Shown here one piece after another: positions 24,460 to 43,715 of a stretch of 45,715 nucleotides of DNA. The DNA is from an uncultured Bacteroidota bacterium (GTDB taxonomy: Bacteria; Bacteroidota; Bacteroidia; JABEUT01), in NCBI GenBank assembly GCA_903916255.1, contig CAIWVW010000087.1, forward strand, positions 1 through 45,715, written 5' to 3'. Position 1 is the stretch's first letter; every line of letters starts with the position of its first letter. A program made the translations under genes and the position numbers. The notes beneath the pieces are model-generated. The model worked only from the letters and a program-made list of their open reading frames with translations. It was not told the origin of the DNA and searched no databases.

Positions 24460-24502
24460 CAATAGTTCCAATCTTTTTTGCAGCCAATTCATGGATTTTG
24501 TA

Positions 24503-24510
24503 TAACTTTG
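24503..24510 (+). promoter_or_regulatory. Bacteroidota-type -7 promoter element
   Basis: TAACTTTG matches TAnnTTTG, with TTTG at 24477-24480 as a possible -33 box (22-base spacer). It ends 14 bases before the ATG at 24525 and excludes the upstream TTG at 24498. Confidence 0.55.
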
Positions 24511-24524
24511 GTCATTCGTTTAAA

Positions 24525-25559
24525 ATGAAAATAGAGGAACATATATCGGAACTGTTATTTGAACACGATTGCGTCATAGTGCCTGATTTTGGAGGCTTTG
24601 TATGTAACTATTCACCTGCCAATATTGACCCGGTAAAGCATCTTTTCGAGCCTCCGGCTAAGCGCATCCTCTTTAATAAAGGCCTCACCCGCAACGACGG
24701 ATTGCTGGCGCATCATATTTCCGGCAAATTTAAAATGCCTTATGCCGAGGCGTTAAATGCAATATCTAAAGAAGTAACCCGCTATAAGCAAGACATTGGA
24801 AAGGACAAGCGTCTTACCCTTGATAATATTGGGCTTCTGTATGTAGATGAAAGAGGCAACATTATCTTCCAGCAGGATAATAAACTGAATTACTTAGCCG
24901 ATTCATTCGGGCTTTCCGCTTTCTACCACTTGCCAATTGCTGAAAAAGAAAAAACCGAACAAGAAGCCGCTGTAATACCTATTTACAATGAGCGTAAAAA
25001 GGAACGCACCTATGTGGCAGCCGCTGTGATAGCGGTATTAGTGGTTTCAGCATTCTTCTTCAACATTCTGGAAAAGCAAACCAATATGCGCTTCTCCAGT
25101 TTCAATTTCTTCAACAGAAAGGAAGCGGCGCAATATGTTTATTCCCCCTCACGATATAAACCATTGCCAACAGAAGTTACTTCCCAACCTTTCCATACGG
25201 TAGTTTCGGATGCTCCTAAAACAGTAATGGCGTCGGCACCTGTAGCGGTCCCAACCCCTGTAACACCTAAAACAGCAGCCGTATCTACAAAAACTGTTCC
25301 TGTTACCAATAATAGCATAACTACTGTTTCAAATTCCAAATACTTAATTATTGTAGGTAGTTTCAGTATTAAGGAAAATGCTGACAACCTTATTGCCGAA
25401 TTCAGCAAACAGAATTTACATCTTTCAATTGTCGGCAGAAACCCTGCCGGATTATATATGGTAGGCTATGGCAATTTCCAAACGCATGATGCAGCCATTG
25501 CTGAACGGGAAAACTTCAGCAAGAAGTTTGGTAAAGATTCCTGGATAAAAAGTAACTAG
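24525..25559 (+). CDS. HU-CCDC81-type domain and SPOR domain membrane protein
   Basis: A 344-residue single-pass protein. Residues ~1-125 form a prokaryotic HU/CCDC81-like domain (ISELLFEHDCVIVPDFGGF, then a FNKGLTRNDGLLAHHI segment). A basic stretch, KKER, precedes a membrane helix at ~164-184 (TYVAAAVIAVLVVSAFFF). A Pro/Thr/Val-rich periplasmic linker spans ~200-265. A C-terminal SPOR domain lies at ~268-344 (YLIIVGSFSIKENADNLI, GLYMVGYGNFQTHDAA). SPOR domains bind denuded septal peptidoglycan, so this protein probably localises to the division site with its HU-like part in the cytoplasm. The start was chosen from the promoter and the conserved MKIEEHISELL beginning. Confidence 0.85.
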   Translation: MKIEEHISELLFEHDCVIVPDFGGFVCNYSPANIDPVKHLFEPPAKRILFNKGLTRNDGLLAHHISGKFKMPYAEALNAISKEVTRYKQDIGKDKRLTLDNIGLLYVDERGNIIFQQDNKLNYLADSFGLSAFYHLPIAEKEKTEQEAAVIPIYNERKKERTYVAAAVIAVLVVSAFFFNILEKQTNMRFSSFNFFNRKEAAQYVYSPSRYKPLPTEVTSQPFHTVVSDAPKTVMASAPVAVPTPVTPKTAAVSTKTVPVTNNSITTVSNSKYLIIVGSFSIKENADNLIAEFSKQNLHLSIVGRNPAGLYMVGYGNFQTHDAAIAERENFSKKFGKDSWIKSN

Positions 25560-25581
25560 TCGGAGCCCGACTGGCAATTAT
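25557..25581 (+). repeat. Stop-codon hairpin repeat, copy 1
   Basis: It starts at the TAG stop of the HU-SPOR gene and reads TAGTCGGAGCCCGACTGGCA then ATTAT. The stem AGTCGG/CCGACT is closed by an AGC loop. Near-identical copies sit at the stop codons of murA (42437) and of the lipoprotein at 33448. It is probably an mRNA 3'-end hairpin, although the downstream tract is only weakly T-rich. Confidence 0.7.
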
Positions 25582-25612: not shown

Positions 25613-26719
25613 TTAATTATCCCTACGTCTTCTGTTATTATTCCGGCCTTTATTATTATTGCTTTTTAATTGCTTAGGGCCACCAACCACATATCCCACT
25701 TCTTTTTCTTTTGCCATTTCCAGTTTCATATCTTCAATGGTTTCGGGCTTTTTGCCTTTCTGGTTCATATCAATAATGGCCTTTACACGTTCTACTGATA
25801 GTGGTATAAAGTTTTCGGGAGCATCGAGATAAGTATACCAAATGGTGCGTTTAAAAATATCTGTCTTTTGATGAACGGCTCGACCCTTTTGCGAATCTAA
25901 ATCCATTGTTTGCGGAAAATCTTTCAGCGCATCCATGTAGGAATCTAATTCATAATTGAGGCAGCATTTTAATTTGCCGCATTGTCCCGCTAACTTAACA
26001 GGATTCAGTGCAAGTTGCTGGTAACGGGCAGCAGTAGTACTTACCGAACGAAAATCCGTTAACCAAGTAGAACAACAAAGTTCAAGTCCGCAGGAACCAA
26101 TACCGCCAAGGCGGCCTGCCTCCTGCCGTTCGCCTATTTGCCACATTTGTATGCGCAGGCGGAATTCTGAACTATATGCTTTGATTAACTCCCGAAAATC
26201 GACCCTGCCCGGAGCTGTATAATAAAAGGATGCCTGCGATTTGTCCGCCTGTATTTCCACATCGTTAATTTTCATGTCGAGCTTCATATTGGTGGCATGT
26301 GTGCGCGCCCTTACTATGATGCTCTTTTCAAGCTCCTGAACTTCCTTCCACCTGTCGATATCATTCGGGGTCGATTTCCTTAAAATATTCCTTATACTTG
26401 AATCGTCTTCCGACATTTTTTTCTTTTTCAGTTGCAATCTGGCTGTTTCTCCGGCAACGGAAACAACTCCCACATCAAAGCCGGTAACACCTTCTACAGT
26501 AACAATGTTACCCTGTAGCAATTGCAAATTATTACGGTTCCTGAAAAACTCCTTTCGGCTGTTTTTAAAGCGTACTTCTACAATATCGAAAGGCTTTTGC
26601 CCGTTTGGAAGCTCCATATTGGCAAGCCAGTCGAACACGTTCATTTTATTGCAGCCACCACTGCTGCAGCCACCTTCGCTACTGCCTCCCCTACCCGTTG
26701 AACATCCACTACACGCCAT
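25613..26719 (-). CDS. PSP1 C-terminal domain protein, RicT-like
   Basis: A 368-residue protein. Residues 1-25 are Gly/Ser/Cys-rich with Cys at 3, 6, 18 and 23 (MACSGCSTGRGG, GGCSSGGC). A PSP1 domain follows at ~40-290, containing the family Cys motifs GSCGLELCCSTWL and CGKLKCCLNYE. The last ~30 residues are a Lys/Asn/Arg tail. In Bacillus subtilis the relative RicT (YaaT) works with RicA and RicF in an iron-sulfur-bound complex that promotes RNase Y-dependent RNA maturation. A similar RNA role here is inference, since no RicA/RicF partner is visible. The family call is firm. Confidence 0.88.
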   Translation of the reverse strand: MACSGCSTGRGGSSEGGCSSGGCNKMNVFDWLANMELPNGQKPFDIVEVRFKNSRKEFFRNRNNLQLLQGNIVTVEGVTGFDVGVVSVAGETARLQLKKKKMSEDDSSIRNILRKSTPNDIDRWKEVQELEKSIIVRARTHATNMKLDMKINDVEIQADKSQASFYYTAPGRVDFRELIKAYSSEFRLRIQMWQIGERQEAGRLGGIGSCGLELCCSTWLTDFRSVSTTAARYQQLALNPVKLAGQCGKLKCCLNYELDSYMDALKDFPQTMDLDSQKGRAVHQKTDIFKRTIWYTYLDAPENFIPLSVERVKAIIDMNQKGKKPETIEDMKLEMAKEKEVGYVVGGPKQLKSNNNKGRNNNRRRRDN

Positions 26720-33330: not shown

Positions 33331-33414
33331 GTCATTGCAAGACTCTGCGAAGCAATCTTACCCAATAGCTGCTTTCAGATTGTATGAGATTGCTTCGCAG
33401 AGCCTCGCAATGAC
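33331..33414. repeat. Dispersed palindromic repeat, CATTGCGAGG..GAAGCAATCT type
   Basis: Left arm 33331-33359 and right arm 33386-33414, 29 bases each with three mismatches, share CTCTGCGAAGCAATCT. It follows the same template as 26767-26839 but with CTCTGC inserted between the two halves. It lies between two lipoprotein genes. Confidence 0.85.
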
Positions 33415-33424
33415 GATAGATTTT

Positions 33425-33450
33425 ATTATTGCCAGTCCGGCTTGGACCTA
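33425..33450 (-). repeat. Stop-codon hairpin repeat, copy 3 (diverged)
   Basis: On the minus strand it starts at the TAG stop of the lipoprotein gene: TAGGTCCAAGCCGGACTGGC then AATAAT. Relative to copies at 25557 and 42437, the fourth stem pair is C-G instead of G-C, a compensatory double change that keeps the stem. Confidence 0.65.
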
Positions 33451-34185
33451 TTGATTCCCCGAAGACAAATAAGTCTCGGAATAGAAAACTGTGCCTGATG
33501 TGGCACTATCAATTGGGGGAGGCATAGAAAAAAAAGTAGTGGCATTATAGTCAATCACTTCTTTGTAAATTAGTCCCACACCTGTGGCATATTGCTCGTA
33601 GTAATATTGATACTGAAAGAAAGATGAATAATTCTGCTGCATTACAGTAAGTGTAGAATCAAATGTATGTCCGTTAACAGTAGCAGGCGTATTTAATGCA
33701 GAATATTGATAATTCCAAGTTCCTATAGTATTCAAGGCATTGCCGTTCCAAATTTCATTGGCACTCATAGGGAACACCAGTTTTATGTAATTGTAATTAT
33801 CCTCCAAACGGGTAGCCATGTTTGAAAGCAAGGTGCCTGTCCAAACTTTTTCCGGGACCAGGATACTGCTCCAGGGAAGAGTATTCGTTAATGAATCTGC
33901 CCTTTTGTAGCGTACTATACGCTGTGTGGGCTGCCCCTGGTTATTATTATAAATGGAATCTATCACTTCCTTAATTTGATACTTAAAAGTATCTAATCTG
34001 GGTACTGTTGCTTTGTATGGGTTAACTACAATAGAATCGCATTCATAAATTACATAATGCCCCACATTATTCGGAAAATAATCGTAGCCAAAATAAGGTG
34101 CGGTATATTCTTTTTTCTTACAGGAAATAAATGCAATACAGAATATGCTTAAAAGAATTACTCCGTATTTCAGTTGTTTCATCAT
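33448..34185 (-). CDS. Predicted lipoprotein, unnamed
   Basis: A 245-residue lipoprotein. The signal sequence ends in AFISC with Cys22 followed by KKKE. The mature part is beta-rich with many aromatic residues (PNNVGHYVIYECDSIVV, YKRADSL, YQYYYEQYATGVGLIYKEVIDY) and no known catalytic motif. I do not recognise the family. Its start overlaps the stop of mnmA by four bases (ATGA), so it is expressed with mnmA although no functional link is evident. It ends in a TAG that is part of the stop-codon hairpin repeat. Confidence 0.7.
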   Translation of the reverse strand: MMKQLKYGVILLSIFCIAFISCKKKEYTAPYFGYDYFPNNVGHYVIYECDSIVVNPYKATVPRLDTFKYQIKEVIDSIYNNNQGQPTQRIVRYKRADSLTNTLPWSSILVPEKVWTGTLLSNMATRLEDNYNYIKLVFPMSANEIWNGNALNTIGTWNYQYSALNTPATVNGHTFDSTLTVMQQNYSSFFQYQYYYEQYATGVGLIYKEVIDYNATTFFSMPPPIDSATSGTVFYSETYLSSGNQ

Positions 34186-40449: not shown

Positions 40450-41145
40450 ATGGAAATGCAATATAATACTGCCCAGCCCCACCTGATTATATCGGAATAT
40501 GGCAGGCATGTGCAGGATATGGCGCTTCACCTGCTTACCATAAAAGACAGAAGAGAACGGAGCAAAGCCACCGAAGCCGTCATTCAAACCATGACTCAGG
40601 TGCATCCTTATTCTAAAGACAGCGAGGAATTGCGCCGCAAATTATGGGACCACCTGCATTTAATTACCGGTTTTAAGCTGGAAGTAGACAGCCCCTATGA
40701 AAAACCGGCGCCCGAAGCATTTGAAGTTAAACCGGAAAGGCTGAAATATCCGAAAACGAATATCCGCCACAAGCATTATGGCAAAATAGTGGATGAGCTT
40801 ATTAAGAAGGCTTCTGTAATGGAAGATAACCGTGAACGGGATGTGTTAATCGAATCTATAGCGCAGCTGATGAAAAAGGGTTTCATGACCTGGAACAAGT
40901 GCACAGTAGATGATAATACCATCATGAAAGACCTGAAAGAAATATCGAAAGGCAACCTTATTTTGAAAGACCCGTCCTGCCTCTCGCATGTGCATGTGCA
41001 GCTTACACCAGTACCTATTAATAAGCCGCAAAACTTCCAGCGTAACAAGTTTGGAAACAACAATAACAACAACAATAATAATAAGGGAGGACAGAACAGG
41101 AACCGGAAAAAGAACAAAAATAAAAACAGGAATGGCGGTTTTTGA
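40450..41145 (+). CDS. DUF4290 protein with Asn/Lys-rich tail
   Basis: A 231-residue cytoplasmic protein. Residues ~1-195 match the Bacteroidota family DUF4290: all-helical, with EYGRHVQDMALHLLTIKDR, HPYSKDSEELRRKLWDHLH and later IAQLMKKGFMTWNKCTVDD. Residues ~200-231 are a low-complexity tail of nine consecutive Asn followed by a Lys/Asn/Arg run, encoded by an AAC/AAT repeat tract (41057-41083). It starts 14 bases after the T9SS protein and its end overlaps the murA start by 14 bases, so murA translation is probably coupled to it. Function unknown. Confidence 0.88.
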   Translation: MEMQYNTAQPHLIISEYGRHVQDMALHLLTIKDRRERSKATEAVIQTMTQVHPYSKDSEELRRKLWDHLHLITGFKLEVDSPYEKPAPEAFEVKPERLKYPKTNIRHKHYGKIVDELIKKASVMEDNRERDVLIESIAQLMKKGFMTWNKCTVDDNTIMKDLKEISKGNLILKDPSCLSHVHVQLTPVPINKPQNFQRNKFGNNNNNNNNNKGGQNRNRKKNKNKNRNGGF

Positions 41146-42439
41146 GGTAACGGGAGGTAAGCACCTGAAAGGGGAAATTACTCCGCAGGGTGCAAAAAAC
41201 GAAGCATTACAAGTTATTTCAGCGGTATTGCTTACATCGGGAAAAGTTGTAATAAACAACATCCCCGATATTATTGATGTAAACAGCCTTATCAGCCTGT
41301 TGAAGGACTTAGGTGTTAAGGTGGAAAAGTTATCTGCGAGTTCATATTCTTTTCAGGCAGATGCTATTCACATGGATGTGCTTGCATCGGAAGCATTTCA
41401 GAAAAAAAGCTCATCGTTGCGGGGCTCCATTATGATGGTGGGGCCATTGCTTGCGCGATTCGGTAAAGCCTACATTTCAAAACCCGGCGGCGATAAAATT
41501 GGACGAAGAAGGCTTGATACACATTTTATAGGGTTTGAAAAACTGGGTGCAAAATTCGGTTACGAAGAAGATACCAACCTCTTTAATGTTCATTCAGACA
41601 AAGGCCTGAAAGGAACGTACATGTTGCTGGACGAAGCCTCTGTTACGGGAACTGCCAACATTGTAATGGCAGCGGTTTTGGCGCAAGGAAAAACTACTAT
41701 TTACAATGCCGCTTGCGAACCATATTTGCAACAACTTTGCAAAATGCTTAACCGCATGGGAGCAAAAATTACAGGAATTGGTTCTAATTTATTACATATA
41801 GAAGGAGTAGAATCGCTGAATGGTTGCGAGCACACCATTTTGCCTGATATGATTGAAATAGGCAGTTTTATTGGTCTTGCCGCCATGACTCAATCGGATA
41901 TTACCATTAAAAATGTAGCGTATGATGAGTTGGGAATTATTCCGCTCACCTTCCAGCGCATGGGCATACAACTGGAAAGAATAGGAGATGATATTCACGT
42001 GTTGGCACAGGACCATTATGCCATCGACACCTTTATGGATGGTTCCATACTCACCATTGCAGATGCTATTTGGCCAGGCCTTACGCCTGATTTGTTAAGT
42101 GTATGTTTAGTCGTCGCTACCCAAGCTAAAGGCAGCGTACTCATCCACCAAAAGATGTTTGAGAGCCGCTTATTCTTTGTGGATAAGTTGATAGATATGG
42201 GTGCGCAGATTATTCTTTGCGACCCGCACCGCGCAACCGTTATTGGTATGAACCATGAGCATCCGTTAAAAGGTATATCCATGACCTCTCCTGATATTCG
42301 TGCAGGTGTAGCACTATTGATTGCTGCTCTCTCTGCCAAAGGCAAAAGTACCATCCACAATATCGAACAAATAGACAGGGGGTATCAAAACATTGATGGA
42401 CGATTGCAGGCGTTAGGTGCACAGATTGTGAGGAAGTAG
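41132..42439 (+). CDS. murA: UDP-N-acetylglucosamine 1-carboxyvinyltransferase
   Basis: A 435-residue enzyme for the first committed step of peptidoglycan synthesis: enolpyruvyl transfer from PEP to UDP-GlcNAc in the cytoplasm. Lys22-Asn23 (QGAKNEAL) and the general-base Asp in LTPDLLS are present, and Arg126 corresponds to E. coli Arg120. The loop residue equivalent to E. coli Cys115 is Asp121, in KPGGDKIGRRRLD. That substitution is known in naturally fosfomycin-resistant MurA from other phyla and keeps activity. The ATG at 41132 begins the conserved MAVFEVTGGKHLKGEI; the in-frame stretch further upstream is not family-like and overlaps DUF4290. It follows DUF4290 with a 14-base overlap. Confidence 0.94.
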   Translation: MAVFEVTGGKHLKGEITPQGAKNEALQVISAVLLTSGKVVINNIPDIIDVNSLISLLKDLGVKVEKLSASSYSFQADAIHMDVLASEAFQKKSSSLRGSIMMVGPLLARFGKAYISKPGGDKIGRRRLDTHFIGFEKLGAKFGYEEDTNLFNVHSDKGLKGTYMLLDEASVTGTANIVMAAVLAQGKTTIYNAACEPYLQQLCKMLNRMGAKITGIGSNLLHIEGVESLNGCEHTILPDMIEIGSFIGLAAMTQSDITIKNVAYDELGIIPLTFQRMGIQLERIGDDIHVLAQDHYAIDTFMDGSILTIADAIWPGLTPDLLSVCLVVATQAKGSVLIHQKMFESRLFFVDKLIDMGAQIILCDPHRATVIGMNHEHPLKGISMTSPDIRAGVALLIAALSAKGKSTIHNIEQIDRGYQNIDGRLQALGAQIVRK

Positions 42440-42462
42440 GTCGGAGCCCGACTTGCAATTAT
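42437..42462 (+). repeat. Stop-codon hairpin repeat, copy 2
   Basis: It starts at the murA TAG stop and reads TAGGTCGGAGCCCGACTTGC then AATTAT. Its end also contains the stop codon of the convergent MFS gene (42459-42461). The stem GTCGG/CCGAC with an AGC loop could serve both 3' ends. Confidence 0.7.
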
Positions 42463-43715
42463 ACTGCGTCCGTTTTCGGCACCCTCAAAATCCTTGCCAT
42501 AGAAAGGAAAATAATAATTCCGATTACGGCACAGATAGATTCAATATTCAACATGCCTGTTGCACCATGCAATGCTTCAGTTGTTCCTTTGCTGTCGAAA
42601 ACCCAGCCTTCTATTTTCGTCATATATAAAATAGGGAAATTGGACAGGCAAGCAAATACAGTATATTTTGTTCCGGCAGCACCTCTGCCAATAGCTTCAA
42701 AAACAAAGGCGCTAAATGCAGAATAGCATAACCCTAGTATGAATGCATACACAGATGTCCATATGATAAACATGACCTCGGTATGCGGGCTATATGCCAT
42801 TGCAAATGAACATATGGCAGAAAGCAGCCCGAAAACTACGTATGCAAGTTTCCGGTCGGTTCTGTCACATATCCAGCCTCCAACTAAACAGCCACCTGCT
42901 GTAATAAGCCCGGATAATACTCCAGTTACAAATTCAATAGTTGAGGCACTTGCTTTCCAACTGCCTGCGGCGCCTGCCCATAAATTTTGCAGAGCTCCTG
43001 TTCCCAATGGTAAAAAGCAAAGGATTAAGGCTAATATACCCATTTTCGCTTTCAATGTTTGCCATATATCTGTAAAAAGGTTCTTCAGGGTTTTTCCTAT
43101 TTCTGCATGTTTAATAGTAGATACTTGTTCCCGGATAAAAATAAGTCCAAAAGAACAAAGAATGCATACAAAAGCCAATATTCCTGCCGGCATCCAGCTT
43201 GTGTTCAGATTTTCTGCCAACCAAAGTCCAGCACCGCCGCCTAATCCCGTGCCACCTAAATTACCGGCATTAATATAACCGCTCACCCTACCCTTCATTT
43301 CATCCGGTATATCATGCGCAGCAAGTCCGCTTACAGCGATACCTAAAAAAGAGACTGCAATATTTCCCAGTATTATTATCCATATAAAAGGTGCAAGACT
43401 AGAAGCCTGTATAGGAAGTATCCCCAGGGCAAACATACCGGCTGCCGTAAAAAAACTGGAAATAAGATACCATTTTTTTAACGTAAGAAACCCGTCTAAT
43501 AATGGGGCAAACAAGAATTTAACAACACCAATTATTAATATAGCTGCAGCCAAAGAAGCGATATCAGACATTGAAATACCGATTTTCCCAAACTGGTATG
43601 CAAGTGTTACTGTAACATACCCATTTGTGATGCCAAATGGCAGCATGAGAAACATGTAAATGAACGGAGGGGCATGTTTATGTTTCAGGACGGCAGATGA
43701 TATTGTATTCTCCAT
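42459..43715 (-). CDS. MFS transporter
   Basis: A 418-residue inner-membrane transporter with twelve hydrophobic segments in two halves split by a polar loop near residues 195-215 (REQVSTIKHAEIG). The MFS A-motif is degenerate, but loops such as GGWICDRTDRKLAYVVFG near 276-293 match the second-half equivalent (G-x-x-x-D-R-x-x-R/K). Gly-rich NAGNLGGTGLGGGAGLWLAE near 150-169 is notable. It resembles AmpG-like or sugar-phosphate-type permeases, but the substrate cannot be assigned. The gene is convergent with murA, so no operon link exists. Confidence 0.85.
   Translation of the reverse strand: MENTISSAVLKHKHAPPFIYMFLMLPFGITNGYVTVTLAYQFGKIGISMSDIASLAAAILIIGVVKFLFAPLLDGFLTLKKWYLISSFFTAAGMFALGILPIQASSLAPFIWIIILGNIAVSFLGIAVSGLAAHDIPDEMKGRVSGYINAGNLGGTGLGGGAGLWLAENLNTSWMPAGILAFVCILCSFGLIFIREQVSTIKHAEIGKTLKNLFTDIWQTLKAKMGILALILCFLPLGTGALQNLWAGAAGSWKASASTIEFVTGVLSGLITAGGCLVGGWICDRTDRKLAYVVFGLLSAICSFAMAYSPHTEVMFIIWTSVYAFILGLCYSAFSAFVFEAIGRGAAGTKYTVFACLSNFPILYMTKIEGWVFDSKGTTEALHGATGMLNIESICAVIGIIIFLSMARILRVPKTDAV

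Follow-up and report, generated by a model that had tools for sequence, protein, structure and literature searches.

A short hairpin repeat set against native stop codons in an uncultured Bacteroidota bacterium

Across the genome of an uncultured Bacteroidota bacterium, copies of a short hairpin repeat lie to the single base against the native stop codons of unrelated genes. This anchoring is real and genome-wide, and it is not a trait of ordinary scattered repeats. The best explanation, to which we give about an even chance, is that the element is a REP-like, non-autonomous mobile hairpin that is set at gene 3' ends when it inserts. We followed it from a window of 45,715 nt, the whole stretch of DNA that was analysed, in which an earlier note had reported three copies, each at the stop of a long open reading frame. 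All three were found as reported. They and the genes they adjoin are as follows, with offsets counted from the first base of the stop.

24498..25559, plus strand: gene ended by copy 1, with HU-CCDC81 and SPOR domains
25557..25581, plus strand: copy 1, TAG followed by TCGGAGCCCGACTGGCAATTAT; split at the stop, TA, GTCGGAGCCCGACTGGCAAT, TAT; hairpin GTCGG-AGC-CCGAC; offset 2
25613..26719, minus strand: convergent neighbour of copy 1, with a PSP1 domain; its stop is 34 nt past copy 1
33425..33450, minus strand: copy 3, TAG followed by GTCCAAGCCGGACTGGCAATAAT; split at the stop, TAG, GTCCAAGCCGGACTGGCAAT, AAT; offset 3; stem pair 4 is C-G
33448..34185, minus strand: gene ended by copy 3, 245 aa, no Pfam match
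40988..42439, plus strand: gene ended by copy 2, EPSP-synthase/MurA family
42437..42462, plus strand: copy 2, TAG followed by GTCGGAGCCCGACTTGCAATTAT; split at the stop, TAG, GTCGGAGCCCGACTTGCAAT, TAT; offset 3
42459..43715, minus strand: convergent MFS transporter gene, its stop adjoining the 3' end of copy 2

With at most three mismatches allowed, the window has these three matches and no more, against 0.01 expected in shuffles, and an Rfam scan of it gave tRNA-Leu as the sole match and no known RNA family at the element. The three genes are unrelated, as had been noted. The earlier description is refined in that copy 1 overlaps its stop (TA plus G), while a complete TAG precedes copies 2 and 3. 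Copy 2 bridges two convergent genes, and its last T is also the first base of TTA, the MFS gene's stop (TAA when read on the minus strand). In the congener G002 the orthologue of the HU-CCDC81/SPOR gene also has the element at its stop by orthologue alignment, as does the EPSP-synthase/MurA-family gene (offset 2); the latter gene lacks it in six other congeners. A CGTC-type REP pair (CGTCATTGCGAGGCTCTGCGAAGCAATC ... GATTGCTTCGCAGAGTCTTGCAATGAC) lies at 33332-33420 of the window, just behind copy 3. The genome has many CGTC-type REP repeats, and they show no anchoring to stops.

Copy number and placement at stop codons

The census was based on pattern and covariance-model searches plus individual loci. 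With the pattern GTCSRAGCCSGACTKGCAAT at no more than three mismatches, the genome of the window (G000, 3.74 Mb) gave 79 matches against four for a reversed-pattern control. There were 46 in G002, which agrees position for position with the public MAG uncultured Bacteroidetes bacterium KR3_bin-0479, six in G007 (61% complete), and none in G006 (99% complete) or in most other congeners. A covariance-model search of the genome and its relatives had been proposed in the earlier note. At E<=10 it found 102 matches in G000, 79 in G002, 28 in G007 and 17 in G003, while the 7-12 matches in other congeners are about the noise level. Pairing covaries among the matches and stops are preferred; neither of the contrary outcomes named in advance, scatter without stop preference or no covariation, was seen.

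For the position test we used the first copies downstream of genes of at least 150 codons. Exactly at +2 or +3 of the stop were 27 of the 38 copies in G000 and 20 of the 29 in G002, about 70% in each. Were the copies spread uniformly over the gap, 0.93 and 1.27 would be expected, respectively (P about 5e-30 and 1e-17), and only 16 of 20,000 random positions had the same offsets. Counting all copies, roughly half are stop-anchored and about half are elsewhere. Other repeats of these genomes, taken as controls (TCATTGCGAGG, CCCCTTTAGGGG, GTCATTGAC), are 11-112 nt away from a stop. The anchoring is seen in the sense orientation alone, reverse-oriented copies showing no clustering at stops. Where copies lie slightly further downstream, nearly all have a first copy, or part of one, ahead of them at the stop, and some non-stop copies abut other 3' ends, either a terminator T-run or the end of another repeat. 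The earlier picture of a small element dispersed to gene 3' ends, stop-anchored and with covariation in its hairpin, holds genome-wide.

Insertion preferences of small mobile DNA usually read sequence or DNA structure, and a stop codon is three bases that are a signal to the ribosome alone. A stop-exact repeat family, found in one genus with some copies in another phylum, points either to selection that acts on a post-stop hairpin with single-base precision or to spread tied to translation or transcript ends. Targeting and selection are each testable as the source of the precision.

Native stops and the occupancy of sites

Orthologues were aligned for 24 genes in up to 11 congeners. Where the element is missing, the protein has the same last residue, or ends within a few positions of it, and the stop is TAA, TAG or TGA. 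C-termini are kept in the parE-like (ARYANIDA), dnaN-like (VMPVMLNN), murA-like (QIVRK), mnmG-like (VHIGR) and serA-like (IIHFLK) genes; gene names outside the window are our presumed assignments from sequence recognition. Since the C-terminus is the same or nearly so without the element, the element neither shortens nor lengthens the protein. At offset 2 the first G of the element converts a native TAA to TAG, and at offset 3 the element stands after a complete TAA, TAG or TGA. The earlier suggestion that the element supplies the stop was not borne out: most orthologues without it end at the same codon, copies away from stops have no conserved TAG, and at most the element's first G completes one. 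The view of REPs as repeats that provide the stop codon is reversed here, the repeat being set against a stop that is native.

The same comparison refutes chance or an artefact of ORF calling, whereby a TAG in one frame of the element would make ORFs seem to end there. The element read after TA does yield TAG, but orthologues without it stop at the same residue, many at-stop copies are behind complete stops of all three kinds, and random positions seldom share the offsets; we give this explanation practically no weight. At one locus of the window's genome (L012, contig C132:37060) a 506-codon ORF runs through the element to a TAA behind it, ending in GFSPSRTGN, which is possibly a C-terminal extension made by the element.

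Site occupancy varies, sites being filled in one species only, in two or in three, and at many occupied stops the congeners have no copy. The parE-like gene, L014, the ABC-F-like L132, L128 and the serA-like gene have a copy in either G000 or G002 alone, already exactly at the stop; several of these single-species copies are sequence-perfect. Decayed copies are found at fusA and rplF in G000. Two positions lie inside a ribosomal-protein operon, between rplE and rpsN, where the operon is unbroken, and after rplF. At eleven sites occupied in both G000 and G002, identity is 86% within the element and 61% in the gap-aligned flank.

Such conservation could reflect selection. The hairpin would then spread randomly, and copies right after stops would be kept for a useful RNA hairpin while others decay or vanish. 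Its presumed use would be to block 3' exonucleases or ribosome run-on and to set mRNA ends between operon genes. We hold both the selection and this use to be possible, though less probable than targeting at insertion. It is in line with selection that the element is conserved and re-paired at the sites shared by G000 and G002; orthologous copies at the DTKK gene carry compensatory double changes (GTCC..GGAC vs GTCG..CGAC, and C-G to G-C at 8:16). The copies between ribosomal-protein genes, and an at-stop share that is greater in perfect than in decayed copies, also speak for it. On the other hand, copies 5-20 nt past the stop, which should be equally good, are almost absent save behind a first or partial copy, the empty sites are numerous, and the rplE and rplF copies of G007 look decayed. 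What speaks for targeting over selection is that single-species copies already sit to the base at the stop, several being perfect, and that near-miss positions are almost empty. Protection of mRNA by the element is a possible role.

Sequence, pairing and the fate of the terminator reading

The 20-base consensus is G-T-C-[G/C]-R-A-G-C-C-[C/G]-G-A-C-N-G-G-C-A-A-T. The element takes an 18-22 bp form, GTC[G/C]GAGCC[C/G]GACNGGCAAT, and the tandem unit is 18 or 22 bp, the latter being the element plus TA. Direct tandems with a 22- or 18-bp unit occur on contigs C138, C36, C118, C78 and C132, and on C35 of G002; one inverted pair was seen (G002 C21). Bases 5' of the element are variable except for a purine at position 0.

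The change of the fourth stem pair from G-C to C-G, first noted in copy 3, is real, and counts over copies from three genomes agree with it (G-C 98, C-G 24, T-A 1). Copy 3 has a stem of four pairs, A-C at the fifth position being a mismatch. Among 53 distinct copies, stem 1-4:10-13 and a possible second helix 7-9:15-17 are paired in 93% of cells, with 18 double changes observed against 4.6 expected, and the covariation score was reached by none of 500 shuffles. The signal is mostly from pair 4:10. The stem pairing covaries, and on the alignment both a hairpin acting in DNA (copying) and one acting in RNA (function) would fit. A pseudoknot-like second helix, GCC(7-9):GGC(15-17), was considered and set aside as suggestive only, with one pair showing a double change in three copies and a one-base connecting loop that is sterically doubtful.

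A rival reading, which goes back to the earlier note, makes the element an intrinsic terminator or a processing hairpin and the source of the stop codon. The hairpin does come immediately behind the stop, and a permissive terminator scan picks it up. However, the tail is CAATTATT and not a U-run, the stem has only 4-5 pairs, some copies come after an existing terminator T-run, and the stop is native. The copies between rplE and rpsN in an unbroken operon likewise argue against termination, and we consider this reading very improbable. A hairpin after the stop codon is also the likeness to Rho-independent terminators at large, from which the element differs in having no U-tract and in its copies inside operons.

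Mobility, a second phylum and known repeat families

The case for a mobile hairpin is built on copy number, stop anchoring, native C-termini, covariation and, in Verrucomicrobia, a net 18-nt gain relative to empty sites. As we picture it, the element would spread as DNA copies, each placed in sense orientation with its 5' end against a native stop, after stop base 2 or 3, or less often against another 3' end such as a terminator T-run or the end of another repeat. The precision would arise at insertion, by target choice at the 3' end of a translated unit, and not by later selection. The transcript would then bear a short post-stop hairpin of small or mildly protective effect. Against this reading, the search for a mobilising enzyme came out negative, about half of all copies are away from stops, conservation and pairing at shared sites fit selection as well, and the sequence past the element in Bacteroidota is mostly too diverged to fix both insertion boundaries.

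When 84,980 named genomes were scanned for the exact element, it turned up mainly in KR3_bin-0479 and soil Verrucomicrobia. Four Verrucomicrobia MAGs have 31-74 copies each, of the form GTCCGAGCCGGACTGGCAWT. Only four of the 78 copies sampled are at stops, one of them at a nusG-like gene before rplK, and others lie beside or inside other palindromic repeats. At two sites in the comparison of the sibling Verrucomicrobia species G062 and G065, 21 nt against 3 nt separate the aligned flanks, a net +18 nt with no target duplication. Site 1 reads GCGCGG, GTCCGAGCCGGACTGGCGGTA, TGAG in G062 and GCGCGG, TCT, TGAG in G065; site 2 reads GCGCG, GTCCGAGCCGGACTGGCATTT, GATG and GCGCG, CTC, GATG, respectively. 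From the aligned flanks we treat both as evidence of probable insertion, the alternative being a deletion in G065. Insertion into hairpin loops was rejected as a general rule in Verrucomicrobia: some copies are within palindromes (GGGATCCCTCG, element, TTCGCTCGGGATGAC), yet flank complementarity over all copies is not above that of mispaired flanks. Behind the same gene in sibling species, different palindromic repeats are found (L308 vs L341, L306 vs L338), as if the gap had been exchanged whole.

We also searched for a mobilising enzyme. The window's genome has seven Y1_Tnp genes, and at 45 Y1_Tnp loci of both phyla no association with flanking copies was found; the few copies seen were not adjacent and came to about the number predicted by copy density. 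On these loci a RAYT/IS200-type transposase as neighbour was rejected. Reverse transcriptase (RVT_1, PF00078) had no match in G000 or G002, the two genomes richest in copies and 97-98% complete, and a retroelement dependent on one was rejected.

That result bears on a related idea, in which insertion is coupled to RNA 3' ends. The mRNA would be cut at the ribosomal A site of the stop, or end at a terminator, and then be copied into DNA. Offsets 2 and 3 are the only common ones and resemble RelE-type cuts; RelE cleaves the A-site codon mainly after base 2 and partly after base 3 (PMC5224514). Some other copies stand behind terminator T-runs or the ends of other repeats. Because no reverse transcriptase was found in the two richest genomes, the likeness to RelE is a lead only; moreover, there is no known intermediate, and the Verrucomicrobia copies are mostly not at stops. 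A hairpin that enters DNA at mRNA ends (stop base 2 or 3, A-site-like, or a terminator) in at least two phyla, by putative machinery, is an improbable reading of these parallels, if less so than a terminator.

Among known families, the mobile hairpin that we favour resembles the GTAG REPs and REPINs (RAYT, TnpA-REP), palindromes of 20-40 bp with tens of extragenic copies, mostly behind genes. Di Nocera et al. (2013, PMC3733652) noted that flanking ORFs often take their TAG stop from the ends of GTAG REPs. Unlike them, the element has no conserved unpaired GTAG/GTGG tag 5' of the hairpin and no adjacent RAYT/Y1_Tnp gene, the stop is that of the gene itself and may also be TAA or TGA, and its direct tandems of 18 or 22 bp outnumber head-to-head (BIME-like) dimers. 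With the CGTC REP superfamily, short palindromes also found in Bacteroidetes and lacking a dedicated transposase (PMC3733652), it shares these features. Its stem, however, is 4-5 bp against 8-9, it has no CGTC (TGTC/CCTC) tag outside the stem, and its first stem bases are GTC itself. The CGTC-like repeat of the same genome (TCATTGCGAGG..) is found 11-112 nt away from stops and not directly at them. Integron attC sites also place a hairpin at the gene end; the element, on chromosomal housekeeping genes, is set apart by gene context. It is REP-like in behaviour and differs from both GTAG and CGTC REPs in the features that define them. The element sequence was found in none of the papers searched, the nearest statement being in PMC3733652, from which contact between repeat and stop is already known for GTAG REPs. 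What is new is that a family without that tag has about half of its copies fixed to the base at native stops, and that one element is shared by two phyla.

The element also occurs with other repeats. On contig C118 of the window's genome (L032:540-1040) an array of alternating variants (CCGAGCCGG, CCGAACCGG, TCGGAAGCCCGA) has a repeated TTTAAAATGTANGGAAATAACGG spacer. A non-coding repeat of at least 250 bp (GTGAAATGTCCGGGTTTTNCGCGTATTTG ... CACTAATTAGTGGTACCGAATTAG), for which Rfam gave sub-threshold chance matches only, often precedes the element and runs up to it at L043:2410-2670, L045, L025 and L047 of the same genome. At four loci of G002 (L133, L152, L153 and L155) the element is embedded in a longer composite repeat, with TTCATGAAATGTGTTTTTCAAAAAAG before it and TTATTTATGAACACTGC behind.
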